From Nitratidesulfovibrio termitidis HI1 (GTDB lineage: Bacteria > Desulfobacterota > Desulfovibrionia > Desulfovibrionales > Desulfovibrionaceae), in NCBI RefSeq assembly GCF_000504305.1, contig NZ_KI632512.1, forward strand, positions 528,388 to 592,387: a DNA stretch of 64,000 bases, given 5' to 3'. Under the pieces are notes generated by a model, which was given only the letters and a program-made list of their open reading frames with translations, ran no database searches and was not told the DNA's origin. The position numbers and the translations under genes are program-made. The first letter of the stretch is position 1. Every line of letters begins with the position of its first letter. This document shows, in pieces, positions 12,911 to 19,879 of this stretch.

Positions 12911-13831
12911 CTAGCCCTTGAAGGCCTTTTCGAAGTTGGGCACCACCTGCTTCTTGCGGCTCATCACGCCGTCAAGCCACACCGACGTGCCTTCGGGCTT
13001 CACGCCAAAGGCCTTTTCGACCATGGAGGCGTCGTCCGAAACGATCAGCATTTCGGAACCTTCCTTCATGATGTCGGTCAGCAGCAGGAACACCGAGTGA
13101 CGGCCTTCGCCCTTCACCTTGGTGATTTCTTCGTACAGGCCGGCCTTCACGGGCTCGAGGATGGACAGGTCCACCACTTCCAGCTGGCCGATGCCGACCT
13201 TCTTGCCGCCCATGTCGAAGTCCTTGTAGTCGCGGAAGACCAGGTCCTTCATGGACGCGCCTTCAACGGCGGACTTCACCTTGAACATTTCCATGCCCAG
13301 GGCCATCACGTCGGCCACGCCCGCGATCTTGGCAAGGGCTTCGACAGCCTTCTTGTCTTCGGGGGTGCAGGTGACGGACTTGAACATGACGGTGTCGGAC
13401 AGGATGGCGCACAGCAGGCCGCCGGCGATGGCCTTGGGCACTTCGATGCCGTAGAAGTCGTACATCGCCTTGATGACGGTACAGGAGCAACCCACCGGCC
13501 ACACCCACATTTCCAGCGGGTTGGGGGTGGTCACGTCGCCCAGCTTGTGGTGGTCGACCACGCCGAGCAGTTCGGCGTCGGACAGGTCGGCGGGCAGCTG
13601 CGCACGTTCGGTGGTGTCAACCAGGATGACCTTCTGGCCAGCCACGGAGGTCACCACTTCGGGGGCCTTCAGGCCGAACTTGCCGAGGACGAATTCGGTT
13701 TCGGGGGTGCACGCACCCTGCGCGACCGGCTTGGCTTCGATGCCGCGCTTGGTCATCAGGTCGGCAACGCCGATGGCGGCGATGATGGAGTCGGTATCGG
13801 GGTTCATGTGACCAAGGACAAGAGCTGCCAT
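12911..13831 (-). CDS. ppaC: Manganese-dependent inorganic pyrophosphatase (family II)
   Basis: 306 residues, the normal size for the family. The N-terminal DHH domain has GHMNPDTDS (metal ligands H8, D12, D14) and VDHHKLGD in the middle. The C-terminal DHHA2 domain ends with the substrate-binding SRKKQ motif. The enzyme hydrolyses pyrophosphate to phosphate in the cytoplasm. In sulfate reducers it pulls sulfate activation forward by removing the pyrophosphate from ATP sulfurylase, which is inference from pathway knowledge. The start at 13831 has GGAGGAAT at a good distance, and residues upstream in the frame do not fit the family. It lies 153 bases after the PTS EIIC gene, with a palindrome in between. 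Confidence 0.95.
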   Translation of the reverse strand: MAALVLGHMNPDTDSIIAAIGVADLMTKRGIEAKPVAQGACTPETEFVLGKFGLKAPEVVTSVAGQKVILVDTTERAQLPADLSDAELLGVVDHHKLGDVTTPNPLEMWVWPVGCSCTVIKAMYDFYGIEVPKAIAGGLLCAILSDTVMFKSVTCTPEDKKAVEALAKIAGVADVMALGMEMFKVKSAVEGASMKDLVFRDYKDFDMGGKKVGIGQLEVVDLSILEPVKAGLYEEITKVKGEGRHSVFLLLTDIMKEGSEMLIVSDDASMVEKAFGVKPEGTSVWLDGVMSRKKQVVPNFEKAFKG

Positions 13832-13902
13832 GTCGGTATTCCTCCGTTGCATGTGGCATTGGGGTTTGGTGCTGCGAGTAGCTCGCATGCTGCTGCGAAA
13901 TT

Positions 13903-13924
13903 GTTTGTGCCAAATAGCACAAAC
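13903..13924. promoter_or_regulatory. Inverted repeat GTTTGTGC-N6-GCACAAAC upstream of ppaC
   Basis: Two perfect eight-base arms are separated by six bases, about 72 bases upstream of the ppaC ATG and 60 bases after the EIIC stop. The half-sites TTGTG and CACAA have the spacing of CRP/FNR-family operators such as the HcpR type. On the minus strand the right arm is followed by AATTT, so a weak terminator for EIIC is an alternative. Confidence 0.45.
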
Positions 13925-13984
13925 ATTCCCGGCTGCCAAGTACCCCCGGCCCTCGCACCGTCAATTTCCGGTGACGAATGTGAA

Positions 13985-14688
13985 TCAGATGAACGAAGCC
14001 GCCGACGCGGCCAGCAAGGCCATGGCAAAGGCCACATAGGCCCGGCGCAGGCGCAGCGCCAGCATGCCGCCCATGGCGCCCACGAACCACACATGGCCCC
14101 AGGCAATGCCGGGAACGGACGGAAGGTGCCCGATATAGTTGGACATCAACTCGATAGTTCCCACAAGCACAAGCAGGCACACGCAAAACAGGCCCAGGTT
14201 CAACGCAAACAACTCGCCCAGCGAGCGCACCATGATGCGCCACAGGGGCGAATCGCCCTTGCCGGGGTGTTCCGCCACCCTGCCCCAGTGCAACAGGTCG
14301 GTGTACTGCTGGTTGCGCCAGCGGCGGTGCAGGTACTCGACATGCGCACCGGCAAGGGCGGCAGGCAGTGCGAGCAGCGCGGGAATGGCCAGTTGTCCGG
14401 CGGATTCCAGGCCGAAGTGCCCGGCCACGCTCAGGGTCAGCAGCAGGGAAATGATGGAATTGGGGGGTATGTAGGTACCGGCGGGGAACAGATCGAGCCA
14501 GAACAGCTCAAGAAAGATGGCGAGGTGCATGGAAAGCTCCCACTCGCCGGTCATGACGGCCCACAGAAAGCCGATGGCGAGGGGGCGTTCCAGAAAGCCC
14601 AGGTTCAGCGAAAAGCGCAGCAGCGAAAAAACGGCAAAAAAAAAGCGATGGGCAGCGCCAGGGTAAGTACAGGCAGAAAGTCCGTCAT
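13985..14688 (-). CDS. PTS mannose-family EIIC permease, frame interrupted at a run of nine T
   Basis: The ATG at 14688 overlaps the EIIB stop as ATGA. It opens a frame coding MTDFLPVLTLALPIAFF, which stops after 27 codons at 14605-14607. One extra T in the T9 run (14636-14644) joins it exactly to the long frame that continues ...AVFSLLRFSLNLGFLERP and on through ELFWLDLFPAGTYIPPN to the stop at 13985, giving 234 residues. The joined protein is a polytopic membrane protein of the EIIC (ManY/AgaC) family: FxxDxFPAG-like start, several hydrophobic helices, no catalytic His needed. It would be the transport channel of the mannose-family PTS with EIIA and EIIB just upstream. The break could be transcriptional slippage, a real mutation or a homopolymer sequencing error. 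No EIID gene is seen. Confidence 0.72.
14636..14644 (-). other. Poly-T (T9) frame-break site in the EIIC gene
   Basis: On the coding (minus) strand the sequence reads CGC followed by nine T and then GCC. The initiating frame and the long EIIC frame differ by exactly one base here. Ten T, or seven, would make one continuous gene. Runs of nine or more A/T are known sites of RNA polymerase slippage. Confidence 0.7.
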
Positions 14689-15149
14689 GACCACCCCTTT
14701 ATCTGCACCGGTTCGTTGGGCACGCAGCGAAAGTCCAGGGACACGGAGTGGCGGTTGAAGAAGCGCAGGCAGGCTTCGTCATCGTCGGAAACGGAAACAT
14801 GCGCGCACAGCTGTTTCTTGCCGGGGGGGTAGTGCAGGTTGCCGATGTTCAGGGTGCTCATGCCCACTCCCGCGTCGAAGGCGCGGCGGGCGTCGGCGCA
14901 CGTGGCGAAGAGCACGAGCGTGTCGTGCCCGTCGTCCGCGCGCCCGGTACAGTACTGGGCCAGGGCGTCCACCCGCACGAAGTGCACTTCCACCCGGCCG
15001 GGAATGGCCAGCGAGACGATCTGCTGTTGCAGGTCGTCAGCCGCCAGGGCGTCGTTGGCCACCAGCAGGCGTCGTGCCCCGGTGTAGGGCAGCCACGCCT
15101 CGATGATCTGGCCGTGCACCAGGCGGTTGTCGATGCGGAACCAGAGCAT
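14685..15149 (-). CDS. PTS mannose-family EIIB component
   Basis: 154 residues, the usual size. It starts MLWFRIDNRLVHGQI, with the phosphorylated histidine at residue 12 in the RLVHGQ motif, followed by the Rossmann-like core (LLVANDA, VLFATCADARRAFDAG, LNIGNLHY). EIIB takes the phosphoryl group from EIIA and, in transporting systems, passes it to the sugar through EIIC. The start lies four bases after the EIIA stop and the stop overlaps the EIIC start (ATGA), so the three genes are co-translated. An upstream extension of the frame runs inside EIIA and is not family-like. Confidence 0.9.
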   Translation of the reverse strand: MLWFRIDNRLVHGQIIEAWLPYTGARRLLVANDALAADDLQQQIVSLAIPGRVEVHFVRVDALAQYCTGRADDGHDTLVLFATCADARRAFDAGVGMSTLNIGNLHYPPGKKQLCAHVSVSDDDEACLRFFNRHSVSLDFRCVPNEPVQIKGWS

Positions 15150-15153
15150 GGCC

Positions 15154-15657
15154 CTACCCGTTCTTGACCCGGCTGCGCAGCAGTTCGCCAGCCGCCACGA
15201 TACCCTTGGCGCCCGCGTCGCGCGCATCGCGCGAAAGGGCGGCCAGATCGCCGTCGCGCCCGCCAAACACCTTGAGCAGCATGGGCAGGTTGACGCCGGT
15301 CAGCACTTCCACGTTGCCCTTGCCCAGCAGGGCCAGACTGAGGTTGGTGGGGGTGCCGCCGAACATGTCGGTAAGAATCATCACCCCGCGCCCGGTATCC
15401 AGGCGTTTTACCGCCTCGTTCAGCCGCTTCACCGTCTCGTCCACTTCCAGAGAGACGTCCACGCTGATGGAGGCGCAGTCCTGCACCGGCCCGAGTATGA
15501 ATTCCGCCGCGCGCAGCAGCGCCGCGCCGTAGTCGGCATGGGTCACCAGAATCACGCCGATGCGCGATTCCGCGGCGGCCTGGCCGTCTCCGGGGTTGCC
15601 GCTGTCACTGTGGCCCTTGCGGGGCTGCCCTGGGTGATGCTGTTCGGTGGTGGACAT
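15154..15657 (-). CDS. PTS mannose-family EIIA component
   Basis: 167 residues from ATG 15657. The EIIA-Man fold starts after a polar 30-residue lead: IGVILVTHADYG with the active histidine at about 40, then MILTDMFGGTPTNLSLALL, the family signature. It would receive phosphate from HPr and give it to EIIB. The ribosome site of the chosen ATG is weak; a GTG at 15765 would add 36 unconserved residues and reduce the gap to rapZ to 25 bases. It follows rapZ and ptsN, a common arrangement in this group. No ptsH or ptsI lies in the window. Confidence 0.88.
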   Translation of the reverse strand: MSTTEQHHPGQPRKGHSDSGNPGDGQAAAESRIGVILVTHADYGAALLRAAEFILGPVQDCASISVDVSLEVDETVKRLNEAVKRLDTGRGVMILTDMFGGTPTNLSLALLGKGNVEVLTGVNLPMLLKVFGGRDGDLAALSRDARDAGAKGIVAAGELLRSRVKNG

Positions 15658-15790
15658 GCTGGTGCGTTCAGGCCGAGCCTGATGTGGTTGGGGCAAGGTG
15701 TGGACGGTATGCCGTCCGGTGAAATCCGGTCCGACGCGCCACGGCGTCAGGTTCGGGCAGGACACCGACGCAAGCCTCGCATCCTTTCGT

Positions 15791-16789
15791 TCAACCCAGC
15801 TCCATGTGGCGGTGCTCTATGGATACGGCATAATCAGATTTTTTCAAGGCGCGAAGCAGGGCCTCCGCCACCGAGACCGAACGGTGCCGCCCGCCGGTGC
15901 AGCCGATGGCAATGGTCAGGCGATAACGCCCTTCCGTCTCGTACTGGGGCAGCAGAAAATGCAGAAAGTCCAGCAGCTTCGCCAGAAAGGCATCGCCGTG
16001 CCCCGCTTCCAGCACGTACTTGGCCACCGGCTCGTCCAGCCCGGACAAGGGGCGTAGGTCGGGCACGAAATAGGGATTGGGCAGAAAGCGCAGGTCGAAC
16101 ACCAGGTCCGCGTCGGCAGGCACGCCGTACTTGAACCCGAAGGTGACGATGTTGATGCGCAGCGACCGGATGCGCCCCTGGATGGTGCTCCACTTCTTCT
16201 GGATGACCCGGCGCAGGTCGTGGATGGAATAGCTGGAGGTGTCCACCACGAGGTCGGCGGTTTCGCGCACCGGGGCAAGGCGCAGCCGCTCCTGCTCCAG
16301 GGCCTGCTCCAGCCCCATGCCTTCGCTTTCCAGCGGGTGCGGGCGGCGGGTGGTGGCGTAGCGCCGGTTGAGCACGGGGGCGTTGGCCTCTATGAACACC
16401 ACCGCCGGGCGCACGCCCATGCCCTGCAACCGTTCCAGCGACTTTTCCAGGTTGCGCACGAAGTTGCTTTCGCGCAGGTCCATGCCCAGCACCAGCCCCT
16501 GATAGTGGGACAGCGCCTCGCGGTTCAGGATGGTGACCATCTGCGGGGCCAGCGTTGCAGGCAGGCCGTCCACCGTGAAATAGCGCAGGTCTTCCAGCAC
16601 GTTGAGCACCGTGCTTTTGCCTGCGCCGGACAACCCGGTAACGATGATGACGGGAAAGTCGGCGGCGGCCACCAGACTGTCCGCATCCGCGCCCCTGTCG
16701 GTTGCCGCTTGTCCGGAGCTGCCCGGCGCGCCGGGCGAACTGGACGCCGGGGCGGAAGGTGCGGGTGATGACGAGGCCTTGGTGGACAT
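15791..16789 (-). CDS. rapZ: RNase adapter / nucleotide-binding protein RapZ (YvcJ family)
   Basis: 332 residues. A disordered Ser/Ala/Pro-rich lead of about 45 residues precedes [16 protein letters not shown] (Walker A). Family motifs follow: [39 protein letters not shown] and [10 protein letters not shown] near the C-terminus. In E. coli RapZ delivers a small RNA to RNase E and senses cell-wall precursor; in other bacteria the role is unclear. Association with rpoN, hpf and ptsN is conserved across proteobacteria and is seen here too. ATG 16789 has GAGGAG nine bases upstream. Confidence 0.92.
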
Positions 16790-16935
16790 GGCAGACTCCT
16801 CGGGCGGCCCTTGCCGGGTGCCGTTTCGGGGGGGCGCGATGGCTGCGCGCCGGCGACGGGTGAGGATGATGCGCGATACGGCCCTGTGGTGCGCGATGCC
16901 CGGCACGGGCCAGCCGCCCAGGCGTGCTCTGCGCG

Positions 16936-17385
16936 TCAGGTGGTCCGCATGAGGGCCTTGAAGGCCTCGCCGTCCGGCGCGTCGAGCATGGCGCGGCGGA
17001 ACTGCGGATCCTTCAGCAGGCGGGAGATGTGGGCCAGAATGCGCAGGTGCATGCCCGCCACCTGCTCCGGGGCCAGCACCAGGAAAAAGAGGTGGCAGGG
17101 TTTCATGTCCAGCGCATCGAAGTCGATGCCCGGCACGCTGCGCCCCACGGCCACCACGATGTCGCTGATGTTGGCCAGCTTGCCGTGGGGAATGGCCACG
17201 CCGTCGCCTATGCCGGTGGTTCCCAGCGACTCGCGGTCGTGCAGCACGCCCAGCGCAACGGCGGCATCCACTTCGGGATGCCGCCGCACCACGGCCTGCA
17301 CGAGTTCCGCCAGCACCTCTTTCTTGGTGCCGGCGGAGAGCTCGGGCAGGATCAGATCATCGTGAAGATACTCCGAAAGCCTCAT
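16936..17385 (-). CDS. ptsN: PTS IIA-like nitrogen regulatory protein PtsN (EIIA-Ntr)
   Basis: 149 residues. The fructose-type EIIA fold is clear: [17 protein letters not shown] with the phosphorylated H67, then FFLVLAPE and [12 protein letters not shown]. PtsN is normally phosphorylated by the PTS-Ntr chain and acts on potassium transport, phosphate or stress control rather than sugar uptake. It starts nine bases after hpf on the same strand and is followed by rapZ, the standard rpoN-hpf-ptsN-rapZ order. Its own ribosome site is weak (AGGCACC), which fits coupling to hpf. Confidence 0.92.
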
Positions 17386-17394
17386 GTATGGTGC

Positions 17395-17940
17395 CTAGAC
17401 GACCGGATCGATAAGGCCGAAATCGCCGTTACGACGCCGGTAGATGATGTTGACGCGTTCCACCTCGGCGTTCAGGAACACCAGGAACTCGTTGTCGCTC
17501 TGGTCGAGCTGCATGGCCGCTTCATCCATGTGCATGGGCTTGGGGGCGAAATGGTCGGTACCGGTGATGGTCCGCTCGTCGCCTTGGCCCATGGTGCCGA
17601 AGGTGAACACGTCGATGCCCTTGCCCAGCTTGTCGGACTGCACGGAACGGCGACGGTCCTTCTGCTTTTCGACCTGCTTGCGCAGCTGCGATTCCAGCTT
17701 TTCCAGCACCAGGTCGATGGTGGCGTACATGTCTTCGGACTGTTCGACGGCGGAGAAGGTAAAGCCGTCGCCAGCCATCTGCACTTCCGCCTTGTGGCGG
17801 AACTTGTCGACGGAAAGGTTCACCTGCATTTCCAGGGCGGACTTGCCGACGAACCGGCCAAGCTTTTCAAGACGGCGGCGGGCGTACTTCTTCAGGTGGT
17901 CGGAGGGTTCGAAGTTCTTGAAGGTGAAGGCGATGTTCAT
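17395..17940 (-). CDS. hpf: Ribosome hibernation promoting factor, long form
   Basis: 181 residues. The N-terminal S30AE domain (about 1-100) begins MNIAFTFKNFEPSDHLKKYARRRLEKL and includes the typical EVQMAGDGFTFSAVEQSEDMYA-type strand-helix. The C-terminal 55 residues (from about 125; EAAMQLDQSDNEFLVFLNAE, then VNIIYRRRNGDFGLIDP) are the dimerisation domain found in long HPF, which makes 100S ribosomes in one step. ATG 17940 has AGGAGGT at the right distance. The gene follows rpoN by 121 bases and precedes ptsN by nine. Confidence 0.95.
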   Translation of the reverse strand: MNIAFTFKNFEPSDHLKKYARRRLEKLGRFVGKSALEMQVNLSVDKFRHKAEVQMAGDGFTFSAVEQSEDMYATIDLVLEKLESQLRKQVEKQKDRRRSVQSDKLGKGIDVFTFGTMGQGDERTITGTDHFAPKPMHMDEAAMQLDQSDNEFLVFLNAEVERVNIIYRRRNGDFGLIDPVV

Positions 17941-18061
17941 ACGCACCTCCTGCGGTGAGAGTGGGAATGCGGTGCGCGGCCTGCACTTGTGGTGCTGCTG
18001 CCGGATGCCCCGCTGGAGACGGATATCGCCCTGCGCCGGGTGCGGCGCGGGGGGCAGCCCG

Positions 18062-19495
18062 TCAGAACAGTTCCTTCCGCTTGGAAGAGGAGGGAATGTC
18101 CATGGCAGTACGATACTTCGCAACGGTCCTGCGGGCAATATTGACTTTGAGCTGATCCTTCAAAATTTCGCCGATGCGCTCGTCGCTCAGCGGTTCGCGC
18201 GGGTCTTCGTCGCCGATCAGCTTCTTGATCAGCGCCTTGACGCTCTCGGAACCCACCTGGCTGCCGTCGTCCAGTTCCAGCGCACTGTTGAAGAAGAACT
18301 TCAACTCCATGATGCCGTGCGGCGTGGCCACGTACTTGCCGGTGGTAATGCGGCTGACGGTGGATTCATGCATGCCGATGTCGTCGGCGATGTCCTTCAG
18401 GATGAGCGGCTTCAGGCGCGAAACCCCGTCCTCGAAAAAGCCGCGCTGGTACTTCACGATGGATTCCACCACCTTGTACAGTGTACGCTGGCGCTGGTAC
18501 AGGCTCTTGATGAGCCACGAGGCGGAGCGCATCTTTTCCTGGAAATATTCGCGTTCGCCCGCCGAAGCGGCCGCTGCGGCGGAGCGCTCGTACATGGTGC
18601 TCAACTGCAGGTGCGGCAGGCCGTCCTCGTTGAGCATGATGATGAAATCGTCGTCGTACTTGTAGACGTACACGTCGGGGCTGACGAACTGGGGGTCGCC
18701 CCCGCCGTAACTGGCGCCAGGCATGGGGTCCAGGGTCTGGATGAGGTCCAGATACTCCTTCAGGTCCTCCATGGTCAGGCGGAACTTGCGCAACAACGGC
18801 TTGTAGCGGCGCTTCTCCAGGTCTTCCAGGTGGTCGCGCACCAGTTCCACCAGCACCCTGTCGCGCGTGTAGCCCAGCATTTCTATCTGGACCAGCAGGC
18901 ATTCCTGCGCGGTGCGCGCGGCCACGCCCACGGGGTCGAAGCGCTGCACGGCGTGCAGTACGGGGTCCACCTCGCCGGGGGTGACCCCCGCCATTTCGGC
19001 GATATCGTCCACCGTGGCGTGCAAATAGCCGGACGAAGCGATGTTGCCGATGATCACCTCGCCGATGTCCTTCTGCCGCTCGGTCAGCGAGGACAGGCGC
19101 AACTGCCACATCAGGTGCCCTTCCAGCGAGGGCTTGGCGGCGTAGCGCGCCTCGAACGAGGTCATTTCCTCGGGCAGTTCCGATTCGCGCACCGTGGACT
19201 GGCGGCTGGTGCTGGCGAAGTCGCCAAGGTAGTCTTCCCAGTCGGCATCGCGGGCGATTTCACGGTCGTAGGCGACATCCGCGGCAGGTTCGGCGGCTTC
19301 GCGCTGGTCGGGGGCCTCCTGCTGCGGCCCGTCGTCCTGGGCTTCTTCCAGAAACGGGTTTTCCAGCATTTCCTGCTGCACCGTCTCGACAAGCTCCAGC
19401 CGCGAAAGCTGCAACAGCCGGATGGCCTGTTGCAGTTGCGGCGTCATCACCAATTGCTGGGTGAGCTTGAGCTGTTGCCTGAGTTCCAATGCCAT
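18062..19495 (-). CDS. rpoN: RNA polymerase sigma-54 factor
   Basis: 477 residues. Region I is the Gln/Leu-rich start (LRQQLKLTQQLVMTPQLQQAIRLLQ), followed by an acidic region II (about 45-110), the core-binding region III, and the DNA-binding C-terminus with the RpoN box ARRTVAKYR about 20 residues from the end. It directs transcription from -24/-12 promoters with activator ATPases. The ATG at 19495 begins the family start exactly. It is separated from the lpt operon by 384 bases with a terminator-like hairpin, so it probably has its own promoter, and it heads the hpf-ptsN-rapZ-PTS run. Confidence 0.96.
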   Translation of the reverse strand: MALELRQQLKLTQQLVMTPQLQQAIRLLQLSRLELVETVQQEMLENPFLEEAQDDGPQQEAPDQREAAEPAADVAYDREIARDADWEDYLGDFASTSRQSTVRESELPEEMTSFEARYAAKPSLEGHLMWQLRLSSLTERQKDIGEVIIGNIASSGYLHATVDDIAEMAGVTPGEVDPVLHAVQRFDPVGVAARTAQECLLVQIEMLGYTRDRVLVELVRDHLEDLEKRRYKPLLRKFRLTMEDLKEYLDLIQTLDPMPGASYGGGDPQFVSPDVYVYKYDDDFIIMLNEDGLPHLQLSTMYERSAAAAASAGEREYFQEKMRSASWLIKSLYQRQRTLYKVVESIVKYQRGFFEDGVSRLKPLILKDIADDIGMHESTVSRITTGKYVATPHGIMELKFFFNSALELDDGSQVGSESVKALIKKLIGDEDPREPLSDERIGEILKDQLKVNIARRTVAKYRTAMDIPSSSKRKELF

Positions 19496-19879
19496 GCGTG
19501 GGCAACCCCTATGGTCCTGCGCCGAGGCCTGACGGCCTTGCGCTATGACCCTGTAACCTTGCGTTGAGGCCGAACGAGATGGCGACGCGACACGAGGCGC
19601 GCCGACAAGCAAGAAACGGCCCACTGTAGAAATGTGTTCCCTTCCCCAAGAGGTTAGGCAAACCATGCCATAGAAGCAAGATGTATGCAACCGCTGTCGC
19701 CAACACGTCGCAATCCCTCATTGCCATCCTGAAATCGATCGGCGGCACCGTGCAGCGCCACCCTTTTTCACGCAAGAAAAGCCGCAAGAGCCCGCAACGG
19801 ATACGGCGCCCCCCGCACTGCGGAAGGCGCCGTGAAATGAAGACCGTATCGCTGCCGTCCGGCAGCGCCGCCGTGCAGG
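19496..19879. other. Intergenic region lptB-rpoN
   Basis: 384 bases without a convincing gene. The lptB-proximal end has two hairpins: a short GCTGCCG/CGGCAGC and a longer one at 19803-19833. The rest should hold the rpoN promoter, but no box can be named with confidence. Confidence 0.5.
19803..19833 (-). terminator. Terminator-like hairpin after lptB
   Basis: On the minus strand ACGGCGCC pairs with GGCGCCGT, with a smaller CCGCA/TGCGG stem inside, about 50 bases past the lptB stop. There is no real T-tract, so termination strength is uncertain. Confidence 0.5.

Follow-up and report, generated by a model that had tools for sequence, protein, structure and literature searches.

The window, i.e. 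the whole analysed stretch of 64,000 nucleotides from Nitratidesulfovibrio termitidis HI1 (genome of 4.26 Mb, one contig), carries on its minus strand the genes for sigma-54, S30AE/HPF, EIIA-2 and a RapZ-like protein, followed by those for the PTS components EIIA, EIIB and EIIC and by a DHH/DHHA2 gene (Table 1). The start of the latter is an ATG picked by eye, and its product is a probable manganese-dependent pyrophosphatase. The closest named matches were Nitratidesulfovibrio oxamicus, N. liaohensis and Desulfovibrio sp. A2. The EIIC start codon (ATG at 14688) shares bases with the EIIB stop codon in an ATGA overlap, EIIB ending at 14685. The frame opened by this ATG meets a run of nine T (T9, 14644-14636) and then a stop after 27 codons, precisely the broken frame and the coordinates that the first-pass annotation had read from the letters. 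The 217-residue EIIC frame is open past T9 down to 13985, and in this genome it contains no ATG, GTG or TTG between its preceding stop and T9.

Table 1. Features at the EIIC locus; positions are those of the window.
Feature	Position	Strand	Remarks
EIIC, 5' part in the ATG frame (0-frame)	14605..14688	-	27 codons and stop; codes for the N-terminus
T9 slippery run (U9 in the mRNA)	14636..14644	-	exactly T9 in 231 of 248 readable loci of the order
EIIC, main frame, 217 aa, mannose/sorbose family IIC (by profile comparison)	13985..14638	-	-1 relative to the ATG frame
PTS EIIB (sorbose/mannose family), from ATG	14685..15149	-	PF03830, 145.1 bits (tested as 14685-15152)
PTS EIIA (mannose family), from ATG	15154..15657	-	PF03610, 70.0 bits (tested as 15154-15660)
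DHH/DHHA2 gene, downstream of EIIC	12911..13831	-	PF01368 and PF02833 (tested as 12911-13939)
Upstream genes: RapZ-like, EIIA-2 (ptsN-like), S30AE/HPF, sigma-54	15791..19690	-	

Profile comparison assigns EIIC to the mannose/sorbose IIC family, as a distant member. The window protein scored 25.0 bits against the Pfam model EII-Sor (PF03609), below the cut-off of 26.3, and 29 of 30 aligned EIIC relatives matched the same model at E <= 0.001. None of the NCBIfam IIC models attained its own cut-off on the window EIIC. The EIIC profile matched the ManY structures 7dyr and 6k1h weakly, with profile position 17 on residue 30, and a PDB search with one natural in-frame relative gave no match. Because of this alignment, T9 would fall in what we take to be the first membrane helix of ManY.

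Relatives of EIIB and EIIA were found at the same locus in all 248 readable loci of the order, gene order lying outside this count, and a relative of the DHH gene was found in 155 of the 248 within the short flanks examined. EIID, HPr and EI are grouped together elsewhere in the genome, far from EIIA, EIIB and EIIC, and EIID (C1:3851143-3851652, locus L305) adjoins HPr and EI, which amounts to a split mannose-type PTS. The genome thereby combines linked EIIA and EIIB genes with an EIID, as is characteristic of a mannose/sorbose PTS. DVU1632 of Desulfovibrio vulgaris is presumably the orthologue of the window EIIA. In excerpts of a published study, the EIIA DVU1632 and PtsI are described as cofit (r 0.89), with defects on alternative nitrogen sources (PMC10102598).

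Conservation of the run and the offset across the order

A search with the single protein matched 197 of 288 genomes of the family, and a profile search identified EIIC in 252 of 348 genomes of the order, with 96 remaining unmatched. The loci were read in all 252; four were dropped on account of an unreadable N-terminus (G338, G175, G081 and G094), leaving 248 readable loci from 48 genera and six families. Second loci (G337, G040, G102, G281, G283 and G285) were not counted, and the named contigs L010-L014 were excluded as possible duplicates of members of the genus. Start classes were assigned from ATG or GTG codons at -80 to -27 from the anchor, ignoring in-frame TTG.

Exactly T9 stood at the same place in 231 of the 248 loci, and in 230 of these 231 genes the ATG frame was offset by -1 from the EIIC frame. 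The offset start was ATG or GTG in 223 of the T9 genes and TTG in one, and six had an additional in-frame ATG or GTG beside the offset start. A comparison of run lengths among relatives had been proposed in the first-pass annotation; within the genus, T9 and the stop were identical in seven of seven other Nitratidesulfovibrio genomes examined. Five named public contigs, some of them possibly from the same assemblies, showed the same run and the same stop. The genes bearing T9 range from 22 to 73% GC, and 45 of them have 65% GC or more. In the N. termitidis genome, exact T9 has 16 matches with both strands summed; its presence at EIIC is more than chance. Two overlapping frames that code for one conserved protein are hence joined at a slippery run, and run and offset are retained among diverged homologues.

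The first-pass annotation had considered a sequencing error or a true mutation equally compatible with the broken frame. Nine-base runs are indeed error-prone, and a single genome could not exclude an error. Given that the same run recurs with the same offset in 230 of 248 genomes from six families, a sequencing error can be regarded as refuted for practical purposes, and the purifying selection on EIIC after the run (see below) likewise leaves a recent loss-of-function mutation with hardly any credibility.

Seventeen genes lack T9. Fourteen of them are in frame and carry T10, T8, T6 or no run, one (G023) lacks any run and offers starts in both frames, and two (G051 and G254) are irregular. 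Conversely, a single gene with T9 is in frame (G010), owing to an extra base beside the run. In Fisher's test the association of run and offset gave p 5e-23 (230/1 vs 1/16), although species are not independent. On a FastTree tree of 247 EIIC rows, built with the residue at the run removed and without G254, which was too short, we counted 13 changes of frame state and 12 of T9 state. Among the independent pairs on starred branches, 10 of 11 change together, none changes against and one changes without the other (p 0.002). G051 was coded as not offset in the tree and as offset in the Fisher table. The offset has accordingly been lost in few lineages only. Uninterrupted relatives without a long T-run, which the first-pass annotation had named as a finding that would speak against slippage, do exist, but they are few, and in them run and offset are absent together, which supports the link of the run to the offset.

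Some of the exceptions merit a description of their own. In G051 (L231) the run is T8, the usual start lies in the third frame and an in-frame ATG is found only at -33; faulty assembly or decay of the gene could explain this. G254 (L096) has T10 and is in frame over the run, with EIIC broken further downstream. Of the six genomes of genus g43, three are without T9 and have EIIC in frame (G284 with T6, G285 with T8 and G283 with T6; loci L276, L277 and L280), and the other three retain T9 with the offset, so the change could be dated there.

Homopolymers near the 5' ends of genes can serve phase variation, as stated in excerpts of PMC2831843, and a run that switched within a population from T9 (off) to T10 (on) would leave both lengths among sequenced genomes. 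T10 does occur in four of the 248 genes, three of them in frame (G075, G108 and G221) and one over the run only (G254). However, mixed lengths would be expected between species under such switching, against which T9 stands at 231 of 248 with T10 in four and T8 in five, and we regard DNA phase variation as very improbable.

In a sample of the phylum, 118 of 395 genomes were matched, 16 of them inside the family. The longest T-run near the start was seven in the 80 loci read from the 102 matching genomes outside the order (22 were left unread), and an in-frame ATG or GTG was present in 74 of these 80, with TTG only in six. As far as sampled, T9 appears to be a trait of the order. No relatives of the 217-residue EIIC were found in viral contigs and plasmids.

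Selection on the two frames and translation starts

Sequence differences were counted by codon position in 367 within-genus pairs. Their identity is 75-98% downstream of the run and 70% or more upstream of it, and the pairs share part of their ancestry. Over the 32 bases that precede the run, 661, 244 and 1020 differences fell on positions 1, 2 and 3 of the ATG frame; in the 150 bases after it, 1844, 773 and 6598 fell on positions 1, 2 and 3 of the EIIC frame. The third-position peak thus moves from the ATG frame to the EIIC frame at T9, which means that the selected frame changes at the run. With a dN/dS of 0.062 among eight congeners, EIIC after the run is, by this measure, under purifying selection. 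A block of 39 bases around the run is invariant in the genus, which alone proves little since an invariant block of 35 bases is also found upstream in EIIB.

Translation of EIIC from an internal or non-canonical start of its own, with the run left uncrossed, would make a frame change dispensable. Some ATG, GTG or TTG does precede the run in the EIIC frame in 65 of 230 genes, and in-frame starts also exist downstream. Nevertheless, 165 of the 230 genes have no such codon before the run, back to the stop or over 120 nt, and 71 have none even when CTG, ATT, ATC and ATA are counted. The next EIIC-frame start after the run is scattered, from 1 to over 70 codons in. The lack of a start before the run in 165 genes and the scatter of the downstream ones make a start within the EIIC frame unlikely, and the bases ahead of the run show the conservation of a coding sequence in the ATG frame; taken together, we give this explanation practically no weight.

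The stop in the offset frame lies 3 to 78 codons from the run, the commonest distance being 12 codons, found in 101 of the 231 T9 genes. This variable tail led us to reject a conserved short peptide, and it lends no support to the earlier suggestion of two useful products, a 27-residue peptide and EIIC. Since the distance from run to stop varies, the short peptide looks like a by-product. A tract of Phe-Phe-Phe that by itself forces T9 was considered as well and rejected: Phe is encoded by TTT in 1835 of 3520 codons after the site, and the in-frame relatives often have other residues there.

The frame change at T9 and its possible use

Some programmed frame change is almost certainly used at T9. 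We propose that EIIC is read by programmed transcriptional slippage at this run, for which we estimate a probability of roughly three in four on the basis of sequence comparison. RNA polymerase would slip on the nine T during transcription of EIIC, and a fraction of the mRNAs would gain one extra U or undergo an equivalent net change. Translation of the slipped mRNAs from the ATG would lead into the 217-residue EIIC frame and produce the complete permease, which has Phe-Phe-Phe close to its N-terminus, and the unslipped mRNAs would yield the 27-residue dead-end peptide. The slip would thereby limit EIIC to a fraction of the level of EIIA and EIIB, encoded in the same operon. That slippage at T9 is the route to full EIIC had already been raised in the first-pass annotation, and the conserved offset and the coupling of run and frame now support it strongly. 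We infer from this pattern that the slip happens in cells, at the level of transcription and at a rate that may serve dosage control.

The ATG frame reads NNT TTT TTT TTG over the run, and slippage by one additional U and -1 ribosomal frameshifting would therefore give the same protein. In the latter case, ribosomes would shift at U UUU UUU or U UUU UUG on an mRNA that stays U9. The shift needed is indeed -1, T9 contains both heptamers of the X XXY YYZ type, and the residues of the product would be identical to those of the slippage product.

The two ends of the run help to separate these mechanisms. The first base is a fourfold wobble position (Ala or Gly) in 185 genes and is T in all 185, compared with an expectation of 25.5 derived from these codons further along the gene. 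The ninth base, a Phe wobble position in the EIIC frame, is T in 230 of 230 genes compared with 119 expected; this wobble set was chosen by T9 but is hardly chosen for the result, as it contains 230 of the 231 offset genes. Fixation of both wobble ends as T favours transcriptional slippage, given that frameshifting on one heptamer would leave one end free, although tandem use of both heptamers would account for two fixed ends. With its nine T the run has about the A/T length known from slippage genes, and a need for each base is suggested by their conservation.

No RNA structure beside the run stood out from the folding z-scores of 91 loci, with means of -0.03 and -0.35 downstream, +0.49 and +0.36 upstream, and -0.33, -0.14 and +0.17 in controls. 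Shine-Dalgarno-like motifs (AGGA-like) were present at -24..-6 in 21 of 231 genes, compared with 11 and 8 in control stretches. The absence of a prominent structure at these loci favours slippage during transcription over ribosomal frameshifting, for which neither a conserved structure nor a widespread Shine-Dalgarno-like motif offers a stimulator. Frameshifting is, however, possible without a strong stimulator, and the motifs are about twice as frequent as in the controls. No second T-run of at least nine bases follows the site in the 231 genes. According to excerpts of the literature, the RNA:DNA hybrid has a length of nine (PMC5574713), and selection against A/T runs shows at length nine in many genomes (PMC1088944); the coincidence of both lengths with the run again argues for transcription. 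Weighing these points, we consider programmed ribosomal frameshifting unlikely, though clearly a stronger contender than phase variation, a sequencing error or recent mutation, or a start within the EIIC frame. Where transcriptional slippage has been quantified in Shigella and Citrobacter genes, the values given in excerpts of PMC4256274 range from 15 to 55%.

If EIIC is made by slippage, the question arises of why the order keeps a frame that needs it. T10 restores the frame across the run, yet it stands in only four of 248 genes, and a one-base change of a nine-base run should be an easy mutation. This suggests that the slip as such is favoured. The simplest advantage would lie in limiting the permease subunit in relation to EIIA and EIIB of the same operon, but a benefit through dosage lies beyond what sequence data can demonstrate. 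With somewhat less confidence than in the slip as such, we lean towards the view that nearly the whole order makes a core transporter subunit only by slippage at T9 and that slippage itself is the selected regulator, acting as a fixed or conditional limiter of EIIC relative to EIIA and EIIB that may respond to nucleotide pools. An out-of-frame T9 is kept through an order in a transporter gene whose EIIA-EIIB-EIIC neighbourhood is conserved, which opens the question of why a broken frame is retained to direct testing in a sulfate reducer. One would expect annotation pipelines to call such genes pseudogenes or to shorten them.

Comparison with known slippage systems

If our reading is true, the EIIC run may be the most widely conserved slippage site known in a non-mobile chromosomal gene. 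Excerpts of the published work assign programmed slippage to mobile elements, secretion genes, dnaX and reduced symbiont genomes (PMC1088944, PMC4256274, PMC5009743). Our literature searches and the accessible text of the main surveys gave no mention of the gene, which supplements or databases could contain; supplements aside, neither Desulfovibrio nor phosphotransferase is named in the accessible parts of Antonov 2013 and of the Atkins 2016 review.

A parallel is found within the N. termitidis genome itself. Seven of its 16 T9/A9 sites belong to one IS family, which we take to be IS3. In six copies (L309, L310, L314, L318, L320 and L321, all outside the window, with A9 around position 1500 of the respective locus) an HTH transposase frame that is open for 96 codons ends shortly past A9. 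An overlapping integrase-core frame takes over beyond it, open for 261 codons in five copies and for 206 in L320; L315 is a remnant. Their A9 may represent a slippage or frameshift use of the known kind. IS-element transposases in general resemble EIIC in having a nine-base run where two frames overlap (excerpts of Baranov et al. 2005, PMC1088944); they belong to mobile elements, however, whereas EIIC is non-mobile and lies beside EIIB and EIIA.

In Thermus thermophilus dnaX, too, slippage on a nine-base run, A9, sets the ratio of products (PMC1088944, excerpt). There the slip leads to the shorter product, whereas EIIC would depend on it for its main product, and the short product seems to have no function. 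Citrobacter tssM1 and Yersinia tssM3 are out-of-frame genes expressed by homopolymer slippage without RNA stimulators, as far as excerpts of PMC4256274 extend, and in this respect they are close to EIIC. They differ by their A-runs and by being secretion genes, and the Citrobacter gene needs both product lengths according to the same excerpts. Poly(A) genes of Buchnera and Blochmannia, in which slippage mends frames in 12-50% of transcripts (PMC5009743, excerpt), come from reduced AT-rich genomes, whereas the T9 of EIIC is also present in GC-rich ones.

A further counterpart is mxiE of Shigella flexneri. The mxiE run consists of nine T, as does that of EIIC. In excerpts of the published work, one extra nucleotide in the U run joins overlapping frames and the longer product requires the slip, i.e. 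an extra U (PMC1088944), with an efficiency of 20-30% (PMC4256274). While mxiE is a plasmid-borne regulator of secretion, EIIC is a chromosomal permease gene whose site has been kept through an order.
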